The notes beneath the pieces are model-generated. The model made no database searches. It saw only the letters and a list, made by a program, of their open reading frames with translations, and was not told the origin of the DNA. Shown in pieces: positions 2,009 to 31,883 of a stretch of 64,000 nucleotides of DNA. How positions within the stretch are numbered: the first letter of the stretch is position 1; the number at the start of each line of letters is the position of its first letter. The position numbers and the translations under genes are program-made. The stretch comes from Pseudomonadota bacterium (GTDB lineage: Bacteria; Pseudomonadota; Alphaproteobacteria; Rhizobiales; Hyphomicrobiaceae): the NCBI GenBank assembly GCA_018242295.1, contig JAFECE010000003.1, positions 248,001 through 312,000 on the forward strand, in the 5' to 3' direction.

Positions 2009-2791
2009 GTCTTTTCAACGACTTAAGATTTTCCACATATCGGTACGCCGGGAGACGCGCGTCTTTTTACAGGTGCAGCATGGCAAAGCTGCCGGCTGGG
2101 TGACGAGCGAGGCTTGGGCGCTCTCTGCGATCCCCGGGGAGCTTCGAGACGTCACCATCATCCGCTCGCTTGGCGGAAGCGGCCAGCGCAGAGCCGGGGC
2201 CAAGGGCTGCATCCGATATACCGTGACGACGATGGATCCTGGGTCTCGTGGAAAGGCTCGGCCGCGATGACAATATCGCGTCCCGAGCACGCACGGCAGA
2301 ACCCACCATTCCGTCAGCCCGGCGCAGGCCGGGCTCCAGGCAATGCGCAGCACATTCATACGTGCTGTCCGCGCGAAACGAACCGCAACTGCCGTAGTGT
2401 TGAAGCTTGTCTGGATGCCGGCCTCCGCCGGCATGACGGTGATGGGCAGCACGCATGTTCGCGGCATCGGCCACGATCGCGGCCCAGATCGATGGCCTTC
2501 CGGCGTCCGTTTTGAACTGGACGATGCGCGAGAGTTTAGGGCTCGCGCTGATGTCGTCACGGCGAGCTTTGCGCTCTTCAATGCTGCGAGAAATTCCTCC
2601 GCTATTTGCGTCCTTCCCACTCGCCTCAAATTTCCAATTTCTATCGAACCGATTGCCTATGCCGAAGGGACGAGGTTCCCGGCCGCACCTATTCCTCTAG
2701 ACGAGGTCTAACGCTGGCGCCCGCAGTGGACACGGCGCGCCCGCAGTTCTACCGTACATTGATCGACTTGCTCCGGGGCCGGGGAGAGCAC
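2009..2791. other. intergenic region, mostly repeat
   Basis: No gene is supported between tRNA-Pro and the glycosyltransferase. About 250 bases are the composite A-B repeat at 2191-2439. Open frames on both strands here encode only the Arg/Pro-rich products typical of such repeats. The rest shows no recognisable feature. Confidence 0.6.
2191..2439 (-). repeat. composite dispersed repeat A-B, copy 1
   Basis: Read on the minus strand, a hairpin of the form GTCATGCCGG...CCGGCAT at about 2438 is followed by a conserved spacer (AAGCTTCAAC, GGCAGTTGCGGTTCG, TTGCCTGGA). A second hairpin with CCCGGCCTGCGCCGGG follows, and then block B (2274-2191) with GAGACCC, CCATCGT and GCCCTTGG. The same order recurs on the + strand at 7710-7947. 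Confidence 0.8.
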
Positions 2792-3745
2792 ATGAGACGG
2801 GCGATTTCCCGGGTGATCGACCGATGGCGTGTCCGGCGCGATCCGAGCACTACGGTTTGCCTGATCATCAAAGACGAAGGCCGGTATCTCGCCGAGTGGC
2901 TCGCGCACTACCTCACGCTCGGGTTCGATCGCATCGTCATTTATGACAACGATTCCGGTCCAGAGACGCTTGCCATCGAGCGCAGGTGCGCCGAGGCGGA
3001 CCCGCGGATAACCGTCATCCCCTGGCCGGACGCTCCTGGCAAGTTCGCACAGCTTACGGCTTACGAAGACGCGCTCAAACGCTGCTCGACCGATTGGATC
3101 GCCTTCTTCGACACGGACGAGTTTCTCGTCCTCAAGACCGACGCCTCCATTCAAAGCTATCTCAAACGGGCGCCCGCGAATGCCGGAGCGGTCTGCATCA
3201 ATTGGGTGGTTTTTGGATCGAGCGGCGAAGCTCACTACCGGCCCGAACCGGTCACGCGGCGGTTCCGACGCTGCTCGCTGACCAGCCCGGTCAACGAGCA
3301 TGTCAAATGCATCGTGCGGAAGGCGGGAGCAAAGCGCATGAATCACCCGCACTCGCCCCGGCTCAGAAAGCGCTTCAGCTACGTGGACGGCGACCTCACC
3401 CCATTCGAACTCGACCGGCGTGCCTTCAATCCCAACTACTCTTATGAGACCGCGCAGCTCAATCATTACGTGTTGCGATCGCGCGAAGAGTACCAGGAGA
3501 AACTGCGGCGCGGCATGCCGGAGCCCAAAGAGGGCGGATGGAAGTACGCAAAATTCGCCGATCCCGACGCATTCTGGTCGGGGCACGATTTGGGCGAGAC
3601 CGAAGATCGATCCATCGATTCCTGGACCGACAAGGCGAGCGTTCTCAGATCGGAATTTTGGGGATCGCTCGAAGAGCGGCGCAATGATACCGCGAACACT
3701 GCGCACTCGGTTTCCGCTATGACTGAGGGTAACGCGCCTGCCTGA
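2792..3745 (+). CDS. glycosyltransferase, family 2-like (Glyco_tranf_2_4 / GT92 type)
   Basis: This 317-residue cytoplasmic protein has the opening typical of a glycosyltransferase group that ends up annotated as family 2 or family 92: CLIIKDEGRYLAEWLAHY at residues 23-40, YDNDS at 51-55, and the DTDEF metal-binding motif at 107-111. Such enzymes transfer sugars from nucleotide-sugars to surface polysaccharides. ATG 2792 is preferred because GGGGAGAG ends four bases before it and the family opening follows soon after; an in-frame upstream extension looks non-coding. It stands beside a truncated gene and a UDP-sugar epimerase, which suggests a small, partly decayed surface-polysaccharide locus. 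The acceptor is not predictable. Confidence 0.85.
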   Translation: MRRAISRVIDRWRVRRDPSTTVCLIIKDEGRYLAEWLAHYLTLGFDRIVIYDNDSGPETLAIERRCAEADPRITVIPWPDAPGKFAQLTAYEDALKRCSTDWIAFFDTDEFLVLKTDASIQSYLKRAPANAGAVCINWVVFGSSGEAHYRPEPVTRRFRRCSLTSPVNEHVKCIVRKAGAKRMNHPHSPRLRKRFSYVDGDLTPFELDRRAFNPNYSYETAQLNHYVLRSREEYQEKLRRGMPEPKEGGWKYAKFADPDAFWSGHDLGETEDRSIDSWTDKASVLRSEFWGSLEERRNDTANTAHSVSAMTEGNAPA

Positions 3746-4249
3746 CGCGCGGCATCCGATTATACACAGCGACGGGACCACATCGAATCCGATCAGGCTT
3801 GGATCGCGAAGCTTCGTGAAACCGCACCTGTGGCCGCCGCGGAACGAGAAGGGCGTCTCAAAATCATCCATGCCGATATCGGGCCGACGCGTGAATTCGC
3901 CGCTCCGAGGGACGAAACCCGCAAAAAGCATTGGCCCAACTATGCGGCGGCGCCATGGAAGCGACGACGCTGGCCGCTTTCGGCTTTCATCAAGGCATCT
4001 CGCCCAGAGCTCCTATTCGTCGACGGCAGGTTTCGGGTCGCCTGCATCCTGCCCGCCGTACTGAATTCGCGGCCGGACGCGATCGTCATGGTTCACGATT
4101 TTTGGAATCGTCCCCACTATCATGCGCCGCTACCATTTCTTGAAGAAATCGAAAAAGTGGAAACGATGGCGGTTTTTCGAATCCGCCCTGGCTTCAAGAG
4201 GTCACGGGCCAAGGCGCTGCTTTCGAAAGCGCGATATGATTTCCGATAG
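3746..4249 (+). pseudogene. 5'-truncated remnant of a SAM-methyltransferase-annotated family
   Basis: Directly after the glycosyltransferase stop, and in the same frame, a coding stretch resumes with IESDQAWIAKLRE and runs to a stop at 4247-4249. Characteristic segments are HADIGPTREF, LLFVDGRFRVACIL and MVHDFWNRPHYH. From memory these match the C-terminal two-thirds of a family annotated as class I methyltransferase or hypothetical, whose missing N-terminus carries the glycine-rich fold start. No start codon or ribosome site precedes it; an internal GTG at 3830 would give only 139 residues. A deletion fusing it to the preceding gene's end is the simplest reading. It may be silent or translated by reinitiation. 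Confidence 0.6.
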
Positions 4250-4380
4250 ATAAAGACCCCTCCAAGCCATTCTATTTCAGGCATTTGGACCGAACGACAG
4301 TCACTGTTGCCGGGACTTGGCACTTACAATCACGCTGGCTGCCGTCGTCCATTTGCTTGTCGTGCGTTCAATCGGATACG

Positions 4381-4701
4381 CTACGCCGCCATGTTCGGCA
4401 GAAAGAAACCGATCATGCCCGCCGCCTCTGCGAGTTCGTCTGCCGTCACGCGGCTGCCGACAAGGCCCGCATCGATCTTCGCGAGAGCGTCTCGGACCTC
4501 GGATAGCGTAAAACTTCTCGATGGTGCCCTGGACGACAGGCCGCACCGAGCGAGCACGTCGTAAAGCTCGACCTCGTTCGCGATGTGAGTAACGCGCTCT
4601 TCGTCGTATGACGTGACATAGGCTGCGGCCGCGCTCGACCATGCTTTAGAGGCGTCTCCGCCGACAATCCAGAACCAATCAGAAGGATTAAAGCTGCTCA
4701 A
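4381..4701 (-). CDS. small phage-tail-associated hypothetical protein
   Basis: A 106-residue soluble protein without signal peptide begins SFNPSDWFWIVGGD, followed by AWSSAAAAYV. Proteins with this opening are, from memory, found next to tail-fibre genes in prophages and phage-like elements. Its ATG overlaps the stop of the tail-fibre gene by four bases (ATGA), so the two are translationally coupled and probably act together, as fibre chaperone or tail component. No enzyme motif is visible. No other head, tail, portal, terminase or integrase gene is nearby. Confidence 0.65.
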   Translation of the reverse strand: MSSFNPSDWFWIVGGDASKAWSSAAAAYVTSYDEERVTHIANEVELYDVLARCGLSSRAPSRSFTLSEVRDALAKIDAGLVGSRVTADELAEAAGMIGFFLPNMAA

Positions 4702-6347
4702 AGGTAGAGCCCTCCGTTCGAGATCGTACCCGAGCCCGAGCCCGGCAAATAGGACGCGCCGCCGCCGTTCGTATTGATGAGACCGTTTTGAGTTACCGAG
4801 TAACGGTTACCGGTTGCGGATCCGATAAATGTATTGCTGGCCACGTCGATTTGGCTCAAGCGGTCGGTGTAAGCGAACAGCAGCGCGGGGGTTCCCGTAA
4901 TCGTGACGGTCATGTTTCCGATATAGATGGCGCCGCCGCGTGTGCACGATAGGTGGCGGGTTGCGCCGCCCGAAATCGTATACGTCTGCCCGCTCGCCCC
5001 TTGGATCAAGCCGATGCCTGAAACCATAACGTGGTGCCCGGTCGTGGCGCCAAAATCCACGCGGTCAAAGAACATAGCCCCTGAGGCATTTGAATACAGC
5101 GCGTACCGACCCGCCGCAGCAACTAGCCCAAATCCCTGAACAGTGAGCGTCGCATTATTCGTGACTTGGAAGCAATCTGTTACGCCATTGACCATGACAT
5201 TCGTCGGCGTCGCGGTATTCCCGAGAATCCGTAGGGTGCCGTTCAGCATCGGCGAGCCCATAACAACAGTCTCGTTATAGGTACCGTCCGCGACCTGAAT
5301 GACTACGGCATAGGTTGCACAGTCCAGAGCGAGCGCGACGTTTACGGCCTTCTGGATGGTCTTGAAAGCGCCACCCGTCGTATTCGCTAAGCCGGTGTTG
5401 GAATCCGATCCATCGGTGCGGACGTAGTAGGTGCGGTTCGCGGCCAGGACTTCGCGTGCGCCGCCCGATGGAAACGACACTCGGCCGTTCGACCGGGCTA
5501 TCCGGATGCCTTCGTACCAGTTCGAGCCGTCGGGGCTCACCTTGAAGTGAAAGTCGTCGTCACCCGTCGTGCCGATCTCGGCGCGGCCGGAATAATTGGT
5601 CTGGTAGAGCACCGACGCGGTGTCGCTCGCGGCGGCCTTGTTGATCTTCTGCTGGTGGCCGTTGCCGGTGTTGTCGAAGAGGCTCGCCGGACTCTGGATC
5701 GCAAGCTTGTTCGTCGCGTCGGCGGTCGCGTTGACGCCGACAAGCGGGACGTTGGCAAGGTCGGCCCAGGTCGCATCCTCGCGCAGAAACCTCGTCGTTC
5801 CTGCGGTTGATCCGGGCGTCGGCACAAGGCCCTTCTTGTGGCTGGCGCCGGAGGCGACAAACGTATCAAGGAGCGCGGTCGCCTGCGCTCCGGTCAGATC
5901 CTCCGGGGCGCCGCTGCCGTCGCTCGTGCGGCCTTTGATCGTACTTGTCGCCATGTTGGCGAGGCTGGAATTGGCGACGGGTGCAGACAGGCCGCCACCG
6001 CCGCCCGAGCCCGCGAACAGCGTCCAAGCCCCCGCGGCGTAGATGACGAGTGCGCTTTCATCGGCGATCCAGGCGGTCCAGCCTTCCTTCGGCGCGTAGA
6101 AAATCCATGCGCCGTCCTGGAAGGCCGCGATCTTCCCGGCGTTGCCCGTCCATGCGCCCGATGGAGCCGCCGCGACGATATACCTTGCGCCCTCCGCCGG
6201 AGACGAAGGCGGCGCCGTCAGCGCCCTGCTTTCAACGGCAAGCTGCACGAGGCAATCGAGTGCGCGGATCGCTTCATTATGCGTGACATGCTTCTGCGCC
6301 TGAGCGGCCAAGATGTAAGGCAGTGCAAGGTTCGGCGTATCGTTCAT
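4698..6347 (-). CDS. DUF2793-containing tail-fibre / tail-spike-like protein
   Basis: The 549-residue product opens with a DUF2793 domain (about residues 1-105: NDTPNLALPYILAAQAQKHV, then repeated W-containing segments such as GAWIFYAPKEGWTAWIAD). A glycine-rich linker follows, and from about residue 305 there is a Thr/Asn/Gly-rich region (YYVRTDGSDSNTG, FKTIQKAVN) that resembles a right-handed beta-helix of pectin-lyase type. This architecture is known from phage tail fibres and tail spikes that bind or cut surface polysaccharide. ATG 6347 is chosen because DUF2793 starts there; the frame is open further upstream without homology. It is coupled to the 106-residue gene downstream and divergent from a UDP-sugar epimerase. 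It could be a prophage remnant or a separately located accessory fibre gene of a gene transfer agent. Confidence 0.8.
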   Translation of the reverse strand: MNDTPNLALPYILAAQAQKHVTHNEAIRALDCLVQLAVESRALTAPPSSPAEGARYIVAAAPSGAWTGNAGKIAAFQDGAWIFYAPKEGWTAWIADESALVIYAAGAWTLFAGSGGGGGLSAPVANSSLANMATSTIKGRTSDGSGAPEDLTGAQATALLDTFVASGASHKKGLVPTPGSTAGTTRFLREDATWADLANVPLVGVNATADATNKLAIQSPASLFDNTGNGHQQKINKAAASDTASVLYQTNYSGRAEIGTTGDDDFHFKVSPDGSNWYEGIRIARSNGRVSFPSGGAREVLAANRTYYVRTDGSDSNTGLANTTGGAFKTIQKAVNVALALDCATYAVVIQVADGTYNETVVMGSPMLNGTLRILGNTATPTNVMVNGVTDCFQVTNNATLTVQGFGLVAAAGRYALYSNASGAMFFDRVDFGATTGHHVMVSGIGLIQGASGQTYTISGGATRHLSCTRGGAIYIGNMTVTITGTPALLFAYTDRLSQIDVASNTFIGSATGNRYSVTQNGLINTNGGGASYLPGSGSGTISNGGLYL

Positions 6348-22849: not shown

Positions 22850-24160
22850 ATGAACATCCACGACAAAGCTGCTAAGGGTGGAACGAAGCCCAGCGCAACA
22901 TTGACGGTCGACAACAAGCAGGTTCAGCTTTCGGTGCGTTCCGGCTCCATTGGCCCCGACGTCATTGACGTTACGAGCCTCTATAAGGATACCGGCTGCT
23001 TCACCTACGATCCGGGCTTCACCTCGACCGCCAACTGCAAGAGCTCGATCACCTATATCGACGGCGACAAGGGTGAGCTGCTCTATCGCGGCTATCCGAT
23101 CGATCAGCTTGCTGAAAATACGAACTTCCTAGCAGTCTGTTATCTGCTGCTTTACGGCGAGCTGCCGACGAACAGCGAGTTCATCGGCTTCCGTAAAACG
23201 ATCACGAACCACACGATGGTTCATGAGCAGATGACGCGATTCTTCACGGGCTACCGGCGTGATGCGCATCCGATGGCTGTCATGGTCGGAACGGTCGGCG
23301 CACTGTCATCGTTCTATCACGACTCAACCGACATCAACGATCCGGCGCAGCGCGAGGTCGCGAGCCAACGCATGATCGCGAAGATGCCGACGATGGCGGC
23401 AATGGCCTACAAATATTCCATGGGCCAGCCCTTCATCTATCCGCGCAACGATCTCGACTACACGTCCAACTTCCTGCAGATGTGCTTCGCTGTTCCGTGC
23501 GAGCCCTACATCGTCAATCCGATCATTTCTCGGGCGCTGGATCGCATCTTCATCCTGCATGCCGATCACGAGCAGAACGCCTCCACCTCGACGGTGCGTC
23601 TGGCGGGCTCGTCGGGAGCCAATCCCTTCGCGTGCATCTCAGCCGGCATTGCCTGCCTTTGGGGACCGGCGCACGGCGGCGCCAACGAAGCTGCGCTGAA
23701 CATGCTGAAGGAAATCGGCACCGTCGATCGCGTTCCTGAATTCGTGAAGCGCGCCAAGGACAAGTCGTCCGGCTTCCGGCTGATGGGGTTCGGCCATCGC
23801 GTCTACAAGAACTATGACCCGCGCGCCAAGGTGATGCAGAAGACCTGCCACGAAGTGCTCGATGCCCTCGGCCACGGCGACGATCCGCTGCTCAAGGTCG
23901 CGATGGAGCTGGAGCGCATCGCGCTTCAGGACGAGTACTTCATCGAGAAGAAGCTCTATCCGAACATCGACTTCTATTCCGGCATCACCCTTCGGGCGAT
24001 GGGCTTCCCAGTCGACATGTTCACCGTGCTGTTCGCCGTCGCGCGGACAGTCGGCTGGATCGCGCAGTGGAAAGAAATGATCGAAGATCCGGAGCAGCGC
24101 ATCGGCCGTCCGCGGCAGCTCTACATCGGACCGCCGCGCCGCGATTTCCCCTCGGCCTGA
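22850..24160 (+). CDS. gltA: citrate synthase
   Basis: GltA condenses acetyl-CoA with oxaloacetate, the entry step of the TCA cycle. The 436-residue length is that of the hexameric, NADH-sensitive type II enzyme. Catalytic residues are visible: His275 in WGPAHGG, His316 in [16 protein letters not shown] and Asp374 in [21 protein letters not shown] is the family signature. The 185-base gap after gltX probably holds its own promoter, though none is obvious. Its last 40 bases overlap the convergent lpxI-lpxB gene. Confidence 0.97.
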
Positions 24161-26574
24161 GCCGCGACAACCGACAACACGACGGCTGCTGCCGCCTCGC
24201 TTGGACTCGAGGCGGCGAGGCGAAGCTTTTCCGGCGCGAGGCTTAGTCCTTCAAGCTGCGCGGAGCGAGCATCCGTATCACTCAGAAGCGGCTCGATGGC
24301 GTTTGCCAGGTTTTCGGCCGTGCACGCCTCCTGCAGATATTCGGGATAGACGTTTCGACCGATCACGAGGTTAGCCAGCACGACGCTCGGCACCTTCAGC
24401 AGGAAGCGCAGGTTCGACATGATCTTATCGACCTTGTAGGCGACGACCGACGGCGTTCCGGCGAGTGCGAGTTCAAGCGTGACGGTGCCGGATGCCGCGA
24501 GCGCAGCCCGCGCCAGACGCATGGCGGCGTATTTGTCGTCAGGGTCGATGATGTGCGGCTTCGGTGCCCATGCCGCGGTTTTCGCGACGATGCGATCTCG
24601 CACGTGCCGGACGGCGGGTATGACGATCTCGATCGGCCCCTTCGACGCGACGCGCGCCACGGCCTCGCCGAACACGTCGATCAGGCGTTCGACTTCCGAA
24701 GTGCGGCTGCCGGGTAGAACGAGCAGGACGGCGCGGTCACGCGCGAGACCGAGGCGAGATGCGAGGCCGTCCGCATCGGCCTTTTGAATGTCATCGAGCT
24801 TTTCGATCAGCGGATGACCGACGTAAGTGCAGCGCGGCCCACCAAGGCGCGCATGCGCTTCCGGCTCGAACGGCAGAAGCGCCAGGATTTGATCGACGTA
24901 GGGCCGCATTTTCTTCGCGCGTCCCGGTCGCCAGGCCCAAACGCTCGGACTGACATAATCGACGATCGGGATGTCCGGTGCGCGCTTCCTGATGCGCTTG
25001 GCGATCGGGTGCGTGAACTCGGGGCTGTCGATGATGACGACCACGTCGGGCGCGAACGCGATCGCGGCGTCGACGGTCTGATAGACGCGGCGGACGATGC
25101 GCGGCAGATTCGGCAGGATGGACATCGGGCCCATGACGGCGACGTCCTCGAGGGGGAAAAGGGAGCGGAATCCCAGCGCCGCCATTTCTTCGCCGCCGAC
25201 GCCTGAGAACGTGATCGGCCCGGCATGTTGCGCCTTTAGCGCGCCGATCAGCTTCGCGCCGAGCGCGTCGCCCGAATGCTCGCCCGCGACGAGAAAAATT
25301 TTCAACGGCTCCGGTCCTGATTCCGACTGTGAAGAGGCGACGAACATTGCGGAACTGTTTGCCAAGCGAATGACACTCGAAGACGTCGCGAGAGCGGCGG
25401 CATTGCCGGTGGTCGCGATGCCTGTGACGTGCGCGTCCCGAGCGGCAGCCACCAGTGGTTCGTCGAGCCGATATTTTTCGCCGATAACGAGGATGCCGCG
25501 GCGGCGCGTATTCTTTCCGCGCAGCTTTCTTACGCGTTCTGCGACCGCTGCGGGCTCTTCCGATGTGCCGACGGCGAGGATGCGTCCGCCGTCGATGACG
25601 ACCGCCGAGCCGCCGCCAAAAGGCGACAACGCGGATAGAACGCCAACGGCGCGGGCGACATCGGTTTCAGCCGAAGAGTTGACGGCAAGATCGCCCAGCG
25701 TCTCCGTCCGGACATTGGGAATGCTCGCCGTCTCGCGCGTCCCCTCACCGGCTTTTATGCCGGCGATGAAAAGGCCTCGCACGACGGCATTCGCGATCAT
25801 CGCCGAGCGGTTGGCGGCGAGCACGTGATCGGCCATGACGGCAATGCCAGCCAGACCTGCGGCGTCGGCGCCCAAGACTGTGTTCGGGCCGATGGCCGGC
25901 AGATCGACGCGAAGGTCCTGTCCAGGCTTCGGACGCTTAACGAGCACACCGTAACGTTCGCTGTCGCCTCGGGCCCGGCGCGCGTCGGCGACGCGCTTCA
26001 GCATGCGGTCCGTGCCATCCGCTCCTTCGATCGCTTCGATGTGGCCGCGGCTGACGACGGCGGCCTGGCCGATGTCGAAGCGTCCGAGCGCGGCGACGAG
26101 ATCGAAACCGCGCGCGATGTCTTCGGCATTTTCGGGCGACGGCTCGGTTGTCGTCAGGTTGCCTTCGCCGACGAGCAGTTCAGGCGCCACTTCACCGACG
26201 CCGACGATGTGCAGGCCGAGCGTTTCGAATTGCGCAAGCACGCCGCGCAGCACGGCGTCGTCGCCGCCTGCCTTCAGCAGTTTCACGACAGCCGGAGCGA
26301 GCCGCAGGAATGCAAGGTCGGGACGCGCCGTCAGAAACGATGGGCGCCGATAACCGCCGAGCAGCAGCGCGTGGCTAATGCCTGCACTCCGGAACGCGGC
26401 CATCGCGCGTCCGGGTTGGGCCCAATTGACGATGGTGTGCGGGAACGCCGCGAGCGCCGGATCGGCGGCATTCTCGACCATGACGACATGGACCTCGCCG
26501 CCGCGGCGCGTGACGCTATGGGCGACTTCAAGAGGAAGCGAACCGGCTCCAGCGATGATCCCGATGCGCTTCAT
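24121..26574 (-). CDS. lpxB: LpxI-LpxB fusion: UDP-2,3-diacylglucosamine hydrolase and lipid-A-disaccharide synthase
   Basis: One uninterrupted frame encodes two consecutive lipid A enzymes (817 residues). Residues 1-273 are a complete LpxI ([55 protein letters not shown]), which cuts UDP-2,3-diacylglucosamine to lipid X. Residues about 300-400 resemble a second, degenerate copy of the LpxI C-terminal half ([33 protein letters not shown]) lacking the RVDLP-type motif. From about residue 422 to the end is LpxB ([69 protein letters not shown]), which joins lipid X to UDP-diacylglucosamine. ATG 26574 gives the family start; ATG 26586 is possible. It follows lpxA closely. lpxI and lpxB are normally separate genes. 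Confidence 0.9.
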
Positions 26575-26594
26575 CGGACCGTCCATTGGCGGTT

Positions 26595-27401
26595 TCAGCT
26601 CTCTTCGCCATTCTTCGGCGTGCACAGCGATCGCTTGCCGCCCTGGCGGATGAACGCGAGGATTTCCTGTACCGAGGCGTGACCGGCGAATTCTTCGGCG
26701 ACGTCTTCCATGCGCTCGATGAGAGTGCCTTCGGCAGCGAAGAGCAGCCGGTAGGCGCGGCGAAGATCGTGAATGTCGTTCCGCGAAAAGCCGCGCCGTT
26801 GCAGGCCGACGATGTTCAGCCCTGAGAGATGAGCGCGATTGCCGAGCGCCATCCCGTAGGGGATGAGATCGTTTTCGAGGCCCGACATGCCGCCGACGAA
26901 AGCGTGATGGCCGACACGGGCATACTGAATGATGGCGGCGCCGCCGCCGATGATCGCAAAATCACCGACGTTGCAATGCCCGGCCAGCATGACGTTGTTC
27001 GAGAAGATGACGCCGTTGCCGACGTGGCAATCGTGGCCAACGTGGCTGTTCGCAAGGAAGGCGCAGCCGTTGCCGACCACCGTCACGGAACCGCCGCCTG
27101 CAGTGCCGGGGTTCATCGTCACGCCTTCGCGGATGATGCACTCGGAACCGATCGAAAGCGAGCAAGGCTCGCCTTTGTATTTCAGATCCTGCGGCTGATG
27201 ACCGATCGATGCGAACGGAAAGATGCGGGTGCCGGCGCCGATATCGGTCCTTCCGGCAACGACAACGTGGCTCACGAGTTCGACGCGCTCGGCCAGCGTC
27301 ACTTCGCGGCCGACCATGCAGAAGGGCCCGACCTTAACGCCGGTTGCCAGCTTTGCCCCGTCTTCGACGACGGCCGTTGGATGGACGTCCACTTCAGCCA
27401 T
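26595..27401 (-). CDS. lpxA: acyl-ACP--UDP-N-acetylglucosamine O-acyltransferase
   Basis: LpxA transfers the 3-hydroxyacyl chain from ACP to UDP-GlcNAc, the first step of lipid A synthesis. The 268-residue protein is a left-handed beta-helix of hexapeptide repeats (about 3-190: [29 protein letters not shown], ...) with the catalytic His123 in SHVGHDC. A helical C-terminal part binds ACP. ATG 27401 overlaps the end of fabZ by eight bases and matches the family start. The lpxI-lpxB fusion follows directly. Confidence 0.96.
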
Positions 27402-27897
27402 TTTGGCTCGCAAACGCGCGCGCATCGGCAGTGTCCGCCAGCATGGCGCTGATTTCGGCCTCGGCCACGGTCTTGCCGTTCACCTTCGCTTCGCACTTGA
27501 AGCGCCAGACGCGGCCGCGATTGCGGATCTTGCGCACGTGGTAATGGAGCTGGTCGCCGGGCAGAACGGGCTTGCGGAACTTGGCGTTGTCGATGCCCAT
27601 GAAATAGACGAGCTCGGCCTTGTAGTCGTGACCGACGTTCGAGACGCAGAGCGCACCCGCCGTCTGTGCGAGGCCTTCGATGATGAGCACGCCCGGCATG
27701 ACGGGGAACTGCGGGAAGTGTCCCTGAAAGAACGGCTCGTTGATAGTGACGTTCTTGACGCCGACGCAGCTCTCGTCCGCGTCCATGTCGTACATCCGGT
27801 CGACCAGAAGGAACGGATAGCGATGCGGCAGCAGTTTCATCACCCGGTTGATATCCGCGGTGCCGAGGGTTTTAACCGCCGTTGCCTTGCCTTCCAT
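27394..27897 (-). CDS. fabZ: 3-hydroxyacyl-ACP dehydratase
   Basis: FabZ removes water from 3-hydroxyacyl-ACP in fatty-acid elongation and competes with LpxA/LpxD for the same substrate. The hot-dog fold is shown by [12 protein letters not shown] and by the active-site block with His60 ([14 protein letters not shown]) and Glu74 ([11 protein letters not shown]). At 167 residues it has a usual length. ATG 27897 is preferred over the in-frame TTG at 27912 because GGAG lies at ideal distance upstream of it. It sits between lpxD and lpxA, the classic arrangement. Confidence 0.96.
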
Positions 27898-27942
27898 AGT
27901 CGTGTGCTCCAAAAAATTGCGCCCGAACGAACCTGCCGTCTG

Positions 27943-29004
27943 TCAGCCTTCTTTAGGCTCCGGCGCCTCGTCCTCATAGCTGTCTTTATCGCGCGCGACG
28001 AGCCGCTTGATCAGGGCCTGCTCGCGCGCGGATTCGCGCAGGGGCTTCGCTGGGGTGCCGAAATAGCGGGCGCCCGGCGGCACGTCGTGCGTCGGGTGCG
28101 ACGCCCCGCCCACCTGCGCGCCGCTGCCGATTTTGATGTGACCGACAGTTCCGGATTGACCGCCCATGACGACGAAGTCGCCAAGCTCGGTCGAGCCTGA
28201 GATGCCGCACATCGAAACGATCACGCAATGGCGACCGATGATGACGTTGTGCCCGATCTGGACGAGATTATCAATTTTCGTGCCCTCACCAATGATCGTA
28301 TCCTTAAGGGCGCCGCGGTCTATGGTTGTATTTGCTCCAATTTCCACGTCGTCCTGGACGATCACACGGCCGATTTGGGGTACTTTGAGATGCCCGGTGC
28401 GGCCCATGGCGAAGCCGAAGCCATCCTGGCCGATGCGGACGCCGGAATGGATGATAACCCGGTCGCCGACGAGGGCGTGGGTTACGGTGGCGAGCGGGCC
28501 AATGAAGCTGTCTCGTCCTATCGTCACGCGCGCTCCTATGACGGCGCCTGCGGCGATTCGGGACCCTGCACCGATTTGCGCTTCACGGCCGATGATCGCG
28601 CCGGGCTCGACGATGACTCCCGGCTCGAGCTTCGCCGTCGGATCGATCGGCGGGGCTCCTGCGGTGGCCACCAGAGGCTGCATGGCGTCGGGATAGAACA
28701 GCGCCAGGGCGCGGGCGAACCCATGATAGGGCTGCTTGGTGATGAGCCGCGTCGTGCCGGCGGGAACGCGGTCGGCGAGCGCCGGGACAACGAGGCAGGC
28801 GCCGGCTTTGGTCGCGTCAAGCTGCGAAAGATATTTCCTATTGTCGATGAATGAGACGTGTGAGGGACCCGCCTCATGTAGCGGGCGCACGTCATCGATT
28901 TTGACGGTGGAGTCCGCGCCGCTCGGAATTTCCGCGCCGGCAGCCACCGCGACTTCGGAGAGTGAAAACGGTCCGGCGCGTTCAAAGAATCCGGGATGCT
29001 CCAT
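27943..29004 (-). CDS. lpxD: UDP-3-O-acylglucosamine N-acyltransferase
   Basis: LpxD adds the second acyl chain in lipid A assembly. The 353-residue protein has an N-terminal uridine-binding domain (about 15-110; [13 protein letters not shown]) and a left-handed beta-helix (about 118-310) with catalytic His252 in [11 protein letters not shown], then an acidic C-terminal helix for ACP binding. The segment [13 protein letters not shown] replaces the more usual end of the helix and looks like a normal variant. It is separated from bamA by 188 bases that contain a terminator, then runs closely into fabZ and lpxA. Confidence 0.95.
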
Positions 29005-29192: not shown

Positions 29193-31589
29193 TTAGAACT
29201 TCGTTTGTGCGCCGAAGCGGAAGAACTGCGTTTGATCGTAGCTCTGTTTCGTTAGGACCTCGGCGAAGTCCATGCGTAGCGGACCGACCGGCGAGTTCCA
29301 TATCAAGCTGCCGCCGACGGACGACCGGACAGAGCTGCTGTCTCCCAAAGTGTCCTGACCAACGGACGCGATTGCGCGCTTTGCACCTGCCGTCGCGTCC
29401 CACAGCGAGCCGGCGTCGGCGAAGACCGCCGCGGTGAGGCCGAGATCATCCGGAATGTAAGGGAGCGGGAAGCGGACTTCGGCAGTCGCAGCCCAGTACT
29501 TCTGGCCGCCGAGCGCATCTGAGTTCGGCGAATTTGGACCGATGTCGCGCGGGCCATAGCCCGACCGATCGAAGCCGCGGACCGTTTCGCCGCCTTTGAA
29601 GAAGGCATCAAGTAGTCGAACGTCCTGGCCACCCCAGCCCTCGATCATGCCGCCGACGGCGCGGCCGACGAAGGTGATCTTGTCGGTGATTGGGTAGTAG
29701 AAGCGACCCTCGGCATTGACCCGCCAGTACTGAGCGTCGCCGCCGAGACCCGCGAAGTCGTTGGCAACTTCGATGTAGTAACCCTTGTTCGGATTCTGCG
29801 CATTGTTGCGCTTGTCGTAGCTGATCGTGGTGCCGATGAGCGACGTCCAATAGGAGCTGTTATTACAGTTGGGAGTAGCACCAAGTGTGAAATTGGTGGC
29901 GCCGCAAGCCTCCTTGATCGCAGCCGAAGCGTCGTTCGAGACGTTGAAGATCTCGTCACGTGAGATCGAGTACGCCGTCTGCATCCAGAGGTTTTCGGCG
30001 AGCGGGAAGCCGAGACGGACCTGGCCACCCAACTTCTTCTGTTCGAAGCCGGACTGCTGCGTGTAGTCAAGCTGCTTGTAGAAGAGGTCGAAGCCGGCAG
30101 CCAAGTTGCGGTCGAGGAAGCGCGGTTCGGTGAACGAGAAGTCCACCTGCATGCGTTCGAAGGAGCCAGCGAGTTTCAGGCGAACGAACTGGCCGTTGCC
30201 GAACAGGTTGCGCTCGGTGATCGACACGTCGCCAATCACACCTTCACTCGTCGAGTAGCCGGCGCCAAACGAGAGTTCGCCGGTCGACTGCTCTTCAACG
30301 ACCACGTCAAGAACGACGCGATCAGGTGCCGATCCGGGACGCCGCTTGATGTCGACGTTCTTGAATAGTCCAAGACCCTGCAGGCGCTTCTTCGCGCGAT
30401 CGACCATCAGCGAGTTGAAGGCGTCGCCTTCAGCCAAGCGGAATTCGCGACGGATTACGAAGTCCTTCGTACGCGTGTTGCCGATGATGTTGATGCGCTC
30501 AATGTAAATGCGCGGGCCTTCGTCCACGACATACGTGATGCCGATCGTGCGGCTTGCCGCATCGGGAATTGGACGCGGGCGAACGCGGGCGAACGCATAA
30601 CCTTGGTCCGCGATGCTGAGCGTCAGCCGTTCCGACGTCTTGTCGATTTGCGAAGCGTCGTATGTAGCGCCAGCCTGCGTCAGCAGATCGCCGGTGAAGG
30701 TGCTGCCATCGATGCCCGGCAGCGAGCTTTCGACGTTGATCGCGCCGAAGGTATACGGCTGGCCTTCGTCGATCGCGAACGTGATGAGGAAGCCCGAACC
30801 ATCAGGATCGATCTCGGCGTTCGCAGCCGTGACCGAAGCGTCCGGATAGCCGTTCTTGAGATAGTACTGGCGGATGAGCTCGCGATCGAGATTCATACGG
30901 TCGGGGTCGTAGACCGACGTGCCCTTGAGGAAGTCGAACCAGCCGGCCTGCGTCGTCGAAATGATGTCGCGCAGCTGGCTATCGGAGAAGGCGTGGTTGC
31001 CGACGAAGTTGATACCCTTGACCTTCGTCGCCGCGCCTTCGTCGATTTCGAAGACGAGGTTGACGCGGTCTTGCTCGAGCTGGATGATTTTCGGCTCGAC
31101 GGCGGCGGCGAAGCGGCCCTGCCTGCGATAAACGTCGAGAATGCGCTGGACGTCCGACTGAGCCTTGGCGCGCGTGAAAACCGAGCGCGGCTTCAACTGG
31201 ACTTCGCCGGTCAGGGTCGCCGTGTCGACCTCGCTGTTGCCCTCGAAGGCAACCTGATTGATGACCGGATTTTCTTTTACCGTGATGACGACGGTCTGGC
31301 CCTTGTAGTCCATGGAAACGTCGGCGAAGAGGCCGGTTCCGAACAGGGCTTTGATCGACGCGTCGATCTTGGAGGCGTTGTAGGCATCGCCCGCCCCGAA
31401 CTGCAGGTACGAGCGTACCGTTTCAGGTTCGACGCGCCGGTTGCCGACGACTTCGATGTTTTTGATCACACCCTGAGCCGACGCGGGACCCGATATCCAG
31501 GCAGCATCACTCATGGCGACCATCGGCGAGAGAACTGCGAGCGCCACAATAAGGCGCAGTCCCGCCAGGATGATCCTAAATTTCTGCAT
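29193..31589 (-). CDS. bamA: outer-membrane protein assembly factor BamA
   Basis: BamA inserts beta-barrel proteins into the outer membrane. A signal peptide (about 1-40: MQKFRIILAGLRLIVALAVL, cleavage after SAQ) precedes five POTRA domains (about 41-400; VIKNIEVVGNRRVEPETV, INQVAFEGNSEVD, VKGINFVGNHAFSD and so on) and a C-terminal 16-strand barrel with the GETVRGFDRSGYGPRDIG loop motif. The chain ends in Phe, the usual outer-membrane sorting signal. At 798 residues it has a normal size. ATG 31589 fits the signal peptide; an in-frame ATG at 31664 would add 25 residues. It lies downstream of rseP, as in most proteobacteria. Confidence 0.96.
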   Translation of the reverse strand: MQKFRIILAGLRLIVALAVLSPMVAMSDAAWISGPASAQGVIKNIEVVGNRRVEPETVRSYLQFGAGDAYNASKIDASIKALFGTGLFADVSMDYKGQTVVITVKENPVINQVAFEGNSEVDTATLTGEVQLKPRSVFTRAKAQSDVQRILDVYRRQGRFAAAVEPKIIQLEQDRVNLVFEIDEGAATKVKGINFVGNHAFSDSQLRDIISTTQAGWFDFLKGTSVYDPDRMNLDRELIRQYYLKNGYPDASVTAANAEIDPDGSGFLITFAIDEGQPYTFGAINVESSLPGIDGSTFTGDLLTQAGATYDASQIDKTSERLTLSIADQGYAFARVRPRPIPDAASRTIGITYVVDEGPRIYIERINIIGNTRTKDFVIRREFRLAEGDAFNSLMVDRAKKRLQGLGLFKNVDIKRRPGSAPDRVVLDVVVEEQSTGELSFGAGYSTSEGVIGDVSITERNLFGNGQFVRLKLAGSFERMQVDFSFTEPRFLDRNLAAGFDLFYKQLDYTQQSGFEQKKLGGQVRLGFPLAENLWMQTAYSISRDEIFNVSNDASAAIKEACGATNFTLGATPNCNNSSYWTSLIGTTISYDKRNNAQNPNKGYYIEVANDFAGLGGDAQYWRVNAEGRFYYPITDKITFVGRAVGGMIEGWGGQDVRLLDAFFKGGETVRGFDRSGYGPRDIGPNSPNSDALGGQKYWAATAEVRFPLPYIPDDLGLTAAVFADAGSLWDATAGAKRAIASVGQDTLGDSSSVRSSVGGSLIWNSPVGPLRMDFAEVLTKQSYDQTQFFRFGAQTKF

Positions 31590-31883
31590 ACGCGGAATTG
31601 CCCCCGGTGTGCCGCCGACCCCCAAATTCACATGCGAGCTGTCGGCGGGCAGCGTCACACTCATGCGTATTGTCGTCCGTCGTTTTTTATAGGTCTTATA
31701 GGTCTTTTTTGACGTTTCTTATGGTCGTTAAGGCTCTTAGATCCCCTGCGCTCCAACTCACGACTTCAATTCGGCCCCCCGATTCGAAGTCCTAACCTGC
31801 TGCGCACCATAACGCTTTTAACGATTCAGAAAGCCTCCGCAAAGTGGTAAGTTTACGCCACTCACTCAGGATTCCGCATGTAC

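Follow-up and report, generated by a model that had tools for sequence, protein, structure and literature searches.

An lpxI-lpxB gene fusion enclosing an inactive-looking second LpxI C-domain in the Hyphomicrobiaceae

In one genome of the Hyphomicrobiaceae (Alphaproteobacteria), two consecutive steps of lipid A synthesis, those of LpxI and LpxB, appear to be encoded by a single gene with an additional LpxI-like piece between the two enzymes. Is this a genuine gene, what would its product do, and where does the additional piece come from? The gene lies in a 64,000-nucleotide stretch of contig JAFECE010000003.1 (the window), at 24121..26574 on the minus strand. As the first-pass annotation had proposed without giving the strand, it is a single frame of 817 codons plus a stop, starting from an ATG at 26574; the plus strand translation of the same interval is full of stops. 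Alternative in-frame starts are present upstream (ATG at 26586 and GTG at 26625), and the mechanical ORF opens at the GTG. Immediately upstream on the same strand is lpxA (26595..27425; TIGR01852, 340.4 bits), and the minus-strand series continues with fabZ (27394..27912; TIGR01750, 204.1 bits), lpxD (27943..29004; TIGR01853, 357.9 bits) and bamA (29193..31664; TIGR03303, 749 bits). The last 40 bases of a citrate synthase gene on the plus strand (22850-24160) are shared, tail to tail, with the end of the fused gene (24121-24160).

The frame contains a complete LpxI and a complete LpxB, as first claimed, with all Pfam domains above their cut-offs. The LpxI_N domain (PF17930) spans residues 3-133 (26176..26568, minus strand) with 105.5 bits against a cut-off of 25. 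LpxI_C (PF06230) matches in two stretches, the best at residues 137-270 (25765..26166, minus strand), and scores 154.9 bits for the whole protein (cut-off 25); a profile search of the window's own genome gave the two matches 138.1 and 26.2 bits. Residues 1-275 align along the full length of the crystallised LpxI of Caulobacter crescentus (PDB 4ggm, E 1.7e-51; also 4j6e). The residues reported to hold UDP-2,3-diacylglucosamine (UDP-DAG) or to act in catalysis in LpxI include Q169, T187, D188, K214 and D225 (PMC6286764). All five are kept in the window protein, as Q170, T188, D189, K213 and D224 of the main LpxI_C domain. They are identical in 48/48 family proteins, the window protein included, and invariant in an alignment of LpxI plus the region that follows it (A4). 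Further substrate contacts are poorly kept, with N74 found in none and T228 in 12 of the 48 family proteins, and both differ in the window protein. The score for the NCBIfam LpxI equivalog (NF047836) is 212.2 bits, below the cut-off of 400, so the NCBI rule would not name the protein LpxI; this cut-off is a naming threshold and not a biochemical feature, and our assignment of the N-terminal half is based on domains, homology and the five active-site residues.

The LpxB domain (PF02684) is found at residues 426-796 (24187..25299, minus strand; 287.6-290.4 bits, with 287.6 in the Pfam search against a cut-off of 22.6), and the LpxB equivalog TIGR00215 scores 231.4 bits, above its cut-off of 190.25. 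Residues 422-789 match E. coli LpxB (5w8n) over nearly its full length (E 4.9e-49). The active-site residues listed for LpxB in PMC5785501 (E15, S17, D98, R201, T277, E281 and N316) are identical in this alignment. Judged by their main active-site residues both enzymes look intact, and both halves are predicted to be active. The architecture, LpxI_N, LpxI_C, an inactive LpxI_C and LpxB, is real and made of known enzymes.

The genome that carries the window is given as 99.99% complete. A profile search identified a single LpxB match in it, no LpxI_C match outside the fused gene, and no match above the cut-off for LpxH (the best scored 45.3 bits against a cut-off of 190.35). No second source of either step is thus visible beside the fused chain. 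The 45.3-bit LpxH-like match (L199, G000:C2:340781-341437) may be a protein of the LpxH2 type. We conclude from these sequence comparisons that the gene probably encodes one bifunctional chain for two consecutive lipid A steps. The LpxI part would release lipid X from UDP-DAG by hydrolysis, and the LpxB part would condense lipid X with a second UDP-DAG to give the lipid A disaccharide, LpxB being the enzyme that joins lipid X to UDP-DAG (PMC5785501).

Between the two enzymes lies a second LpxI_C domain (residues about 293-411; 25339..25698, minus strand), which we refer to as the tail and which is followed by a short linker to LpxB (residues 412-421; 25312..25341, minus strand). The first-pass annotation had read this region as a degenerate LpxI C-terminal half, and each comparison agrees. 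Residues 276-423 alone match LpxI_C with 26.8 bits (E 5e-6; cut-off 25). An hhalign comparison of the tail with LpxI_C gave an E-value of 2.8e-22 over 128 columns, in agreement with the earlier hand alignment of the repeat. An HMM of the catalytic C-domains matches 48/48 family tails, with 13.4-60.8 bits; the highest score among 960 shuffled tails was 7.2 bits. Structure prediction gives an intact LpxI_C fold (pLDDT 88), so the anticipated structural similarity to LpxI is present. The catalytic residues are not: across 50 tail rows (48 tails, two of them in two pieces), Q169 is found in two, T187 in two, and D188 and K214 in none, and the D225 column, in a poorly aligned stretch, has a gap in 32 rows and D in 15. 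This suggests that the tail is a pseudo-domain and not a second enzyme.

A domain that has lost its catalytic residues might be a mere spacer or a decaying relic with no role of its own. Its mean dN/dS among 10 fused genes (0.33) is about twice that of LpxI (0.17; LpxB, 0.11), by a simple counting method that in many pairs gave dS values of about 1 or more. In addition, none of the 21 tails of the window's genus has the RQW/SHWG-type motif that 24 of the 27 tails from other genera carry. However, a dN/dS of 0.33 indicates that the tail is retained and constrained, if more loosely than the enzymes. The tail is present in 48/48 extracted family proteins, its predicted fold is intact, and it has conserved positions of its own (D305 and A405 in 47/48 each; R347, G360 and G385 in 44/48 each; E339 in 42/48). 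Moreover, a stand-alone LpxI with a tail has no fused partner from which to be spaced. We therefore consider a tail without function doubtful. The LRQWG motif is not an invention of the tail, as had seemed possible: the single LpxI_C of three relatives (L074, L078 and L086) also has it, so it looks inherited. LRQWG is otherwise found in inactive tails of other Hyphomicrobiaceae genera, and its presence in a single LpxI_C may mark the ancestor of the duplication.

The distribution of the tail indicates where it came from. In a survey of the order, two LpxI_C matches were found in 12 of 15 family genomes and one in each match-bearing genome of other families, among the matches listed. Of the 48 extracted family proteins, all with a tail, 37 are stand-alone LpxI proteins that have it at their end. 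In 12 unfused Hyphomicrobium-type loci with a tail, LpxI extends 124-164 residues past the C-domain, compared with 0-18 residues in named relatives such as Bradyrhizobium, Rhizobium, Stappia and Methyloligella; two loci labelled Hyphomicrobiaceae (L074 and L126) are without a tail. In a quick C-domain tree (124 rows and only 141 columns, with some long branches), one branch (SH-aLRT 97) has 48/48 tails on the same side, so a single duplication of LpxI_C suffices. The tail occurs with or without fusion, which makes it older than the fusion, and the 37 unfused proteins led us to reject an origin in the fusion event. The initial reading of a genuine LpxI-LpxB fusion with a degenerate half is thus correct but incomplete, the half copy not being a product of the fusion.

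Tandem LpxI_C domains outside the family were also considered. Among the matches listed in our class and phylum surveys, seven genomes of other families had two LpxI_C matches, and on recheck none of them (0/7) was a tandem. In four (G739, G762, G774 and G873), a frame of 300-319 codons holds a single domain that matches as two pieces; these four genomes belong to one family (f63), and their LpxI_C is split as if by an insert or a divergent stretch. In G479 the matches are two genes on two contigs of an assembly with 8% contamination, and in G733 and G596 the second match is a fragment on another contig.

The age of the fusion can be read within the window's own genus. Of 22 genomes surveyed, 11 have the fused frame (cut by a contig end in G014) and 11 have two genes, which are adjacent except in G018, where they are on two contigs. 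A quick LpxB tree with 108 rows places the 11 fused members of the genus in a single clade (SH-aLRT 96), nested within members that have separate genes; over the whole tree, the starred branches require a minimum of four switches between the fused and the separate state. Separate lpxI and lpxB genes in the closest relatives, which would have spoken for a joining error, were not seen: the 10 other clade members are fused, and separate genes occur in the neighbouring clades of the genus. The junction was read in three sister members (L014, L015 and L016), whose two genes are in different frames and either abut or overlap, so the fusion required both the loss of a stop and a change of frame. This comparison shows that the duplication came first and that neighbouring genes later fused in a single clade of the genus.

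The first-pass annotation took LpxI and LpxB to be separate proteins elsewhere. That is true of most genomes seen; there are, however, fusions in a second alphaproteobacterial family as well as in two isolated drafts. Our fusion and LpxI_C surveys cover Pseudomonadota. In the rest of the window's family (93 genomes surveyed), one draft genome (G022) has a fused frame of 917 codons including the tail, alone among six genomes of its genus. The second family (f86, Alphaproteobacteria with genomes of about 0.6-1.6 Mb) has LpxI_C in 38 of 40 genomes. The frame is 628-720 codons long in 27 of these 38, and 471 codons, cut by a contig end, in one more (G910); these genomes represent five of the six genera, and both domains were confirmed in one frame for 12 of the 28. 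LpxB follows within a few residues of LpxI, so these fusions are without a tail. In the sixth genus (10 genomes with a match), the LpxI frames of 246-310 codons are too short for a fusion, and LpxB is in its own frame at six of the 10 loci. The other isolated draft genome (G971) encodes a tail-less LpxI-LpxB fusion of 668 amino acids, which may be an assembly error; no joint match was found in the other three genomes of its four-genome family. Those three genomes (G437, G948 and G1108) have a second LpxB-like match elsewhere in the genome.

A search of 386 genomes of the class with an f86 protein returned at least four unbroken joint matches (three from f86, plus G971), and the window's own genome makes a fifth fused frame. 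One or two stops interrupt at least 26 further joint matches, which are neighbouring genes in the same frame, close to fusion. Among the matches listed in the LpxI_C surveys (order, 297 genomes; class, 193; phylum, 396), frames of at least 640 codons were found only in G000, G505 and G413, all in the class and phylum surveys and none in that of the order. Several apparent fusions were rejected: in three genomes (G025, G027 and G067) a TGA separates genes in the same frame, in G036 stops lie between the genes, and in G060 there are two overlapping frames. Long LpxB frames without a joint match were found in G459, G509, G942, G944 and G1041; in the first two LpxI is in another, shorter frame, and they were rejected as fusions.

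The taxonomic spread of these fusions bears on another possible role of the tail, namely that it docks LpxI to LpxB and that fusion later made the contact permanent. Among the matches listed, most family genomes have lpxI next to lpxB, and this tail-bearing family saw one fusion in the genus and perhaps a second, in G022. Against this, the fusions of f86 and G971 have no tail, and 37 of the 48 extracted tail-bearing proteins are unfused, and we think docking unlikely to be what the tail is for.

It is less probable still that a gene fused at the DNA level yields separate proteins in the cell, with LpxB made also or mainly from an internal start or the chain cut in the linker, which is short and variable. 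In the window, the first leucine of LpxB is encoded by TTG, as it is in six of 10 other fused frames read at this place (L049 and nine from the genus), and a relic in-frame ATG lies nine residues before LpxB in L009 and L010, so that some free LpxB may be made. However, the TTG is absent from L010, L011, L012 and L049, no start-like codon is found at one place common to all 11 frames, and the frame is open throughout the clade even though a stop would be cost-free if the products were separate. Finally, a frame artefact, with two genes joined by a sequencing or assembly error, is extremely improbable: neighbouring clades of the genus do have two genes, which are out of frame with each other at all three junctions read, and one named MAG (L071) looks like such a case, but 11 genomes share the fused frame in one clade, two of them (G005 and G020) as single contigs, and the dN/dS values of the two enzyme halves given above are low across 10 fused genes. 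In L071, a MAG named Hyphomicrobium, LpxI and LpxB are in one frame (2785-5388) by way of an out-of-frame tail region that has no tail match; a sequence error is probable, and L071 was rejected as an additional fusion.

We return, then, to a single bifunctional chain and to what it might gain. LpxI makes lipid X, and LpxB consumes lipid X together with the substrate of LpxI, so both enzymes compete for UDP-DAG, half of which must be hydrolysed and half kept. One chain would fix the enzymes at a 1:1 ratio, which would suit the need of LpxB for one lipid X and one UDP-DAG, and would keep lipid X near its consumer. Overexpression of LpxG, another hydrolase, is reported to lead to toxic accumulation of lipid X (PMC4807358), which provides a reason for tight coupling. 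Channelling of lipid X and a fixed stoichiometry, which the first-pass annotation had proposed, are possible benefits, and channelling would need active sites placed for hand-over. LpxI is a dimer whose functional relevance is described as unclear (PMC6286764). Given this dimer and a duplicated, inactive C-domain, the simplest reading of the tail is that of an internal partner for the dimer interface; more tentatively, it may be a structural pseudo-partner that packs like the second subunit of an LpxI homodimer. The fullest version of this reading is speculative and improbable as a whole: lipid X would pass from LpxI to LpxB within the chain, the tail would be a pseudo-subunit or a substrate sensor that balances the use of UDP-DAG, and the same coupling would have been reached independently, without a tail, in the second alphaproteobacterial family.

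Natural one-chain LpxI-LpxB proteins in two well-supported lineages make both the hand-over of lipid X without release and the importance of a 1:1 enzyme ratio directly testable. For structural work, the fused chain would supply two linked steps of a pathway that is a target for antibiotics, and the inactive LpxI_C copy is relevant to what the LpxI dimer does. Our searches of the PMC literature showed no report of an LpxI-LpxB fusion, including in the relevant parts of PMC5007114, PMC4085339, PMC6286764, PMC3087551, PMC5785501 and PMC4807358; most subscription journals are outside this scope. The lpxC/fabZ fusion of Bacteroidetes, Chlorobi and Verrucomicrobia (PMC3087551) also joins neighbouring genes of a lipid A cluster. 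The enzymes joined there are different ones, whereas LpxI and LpxB catalyse consecutive steps. We know of no product handed from LpxC to FabZ. In a structure comparison, the predicted tail has the fold of the C-domain of crystallised LpxI (4ggm/4j6e), and its resemblance to AICAR transformylase (ATIC/PurH) and to cytosine and tRNA deaminases is one of fold only. E. coli LpxB (5w8n) is a free, C-terminally swapped dimer (PMC5785501), whereas the N-terminus of the window LpxB is fused to LpxI and the tail. Similarly, the LpxI of C. crescentus ends after one C-domain, whereas the window protein adds an inactive-looking C-domain and LpxB.
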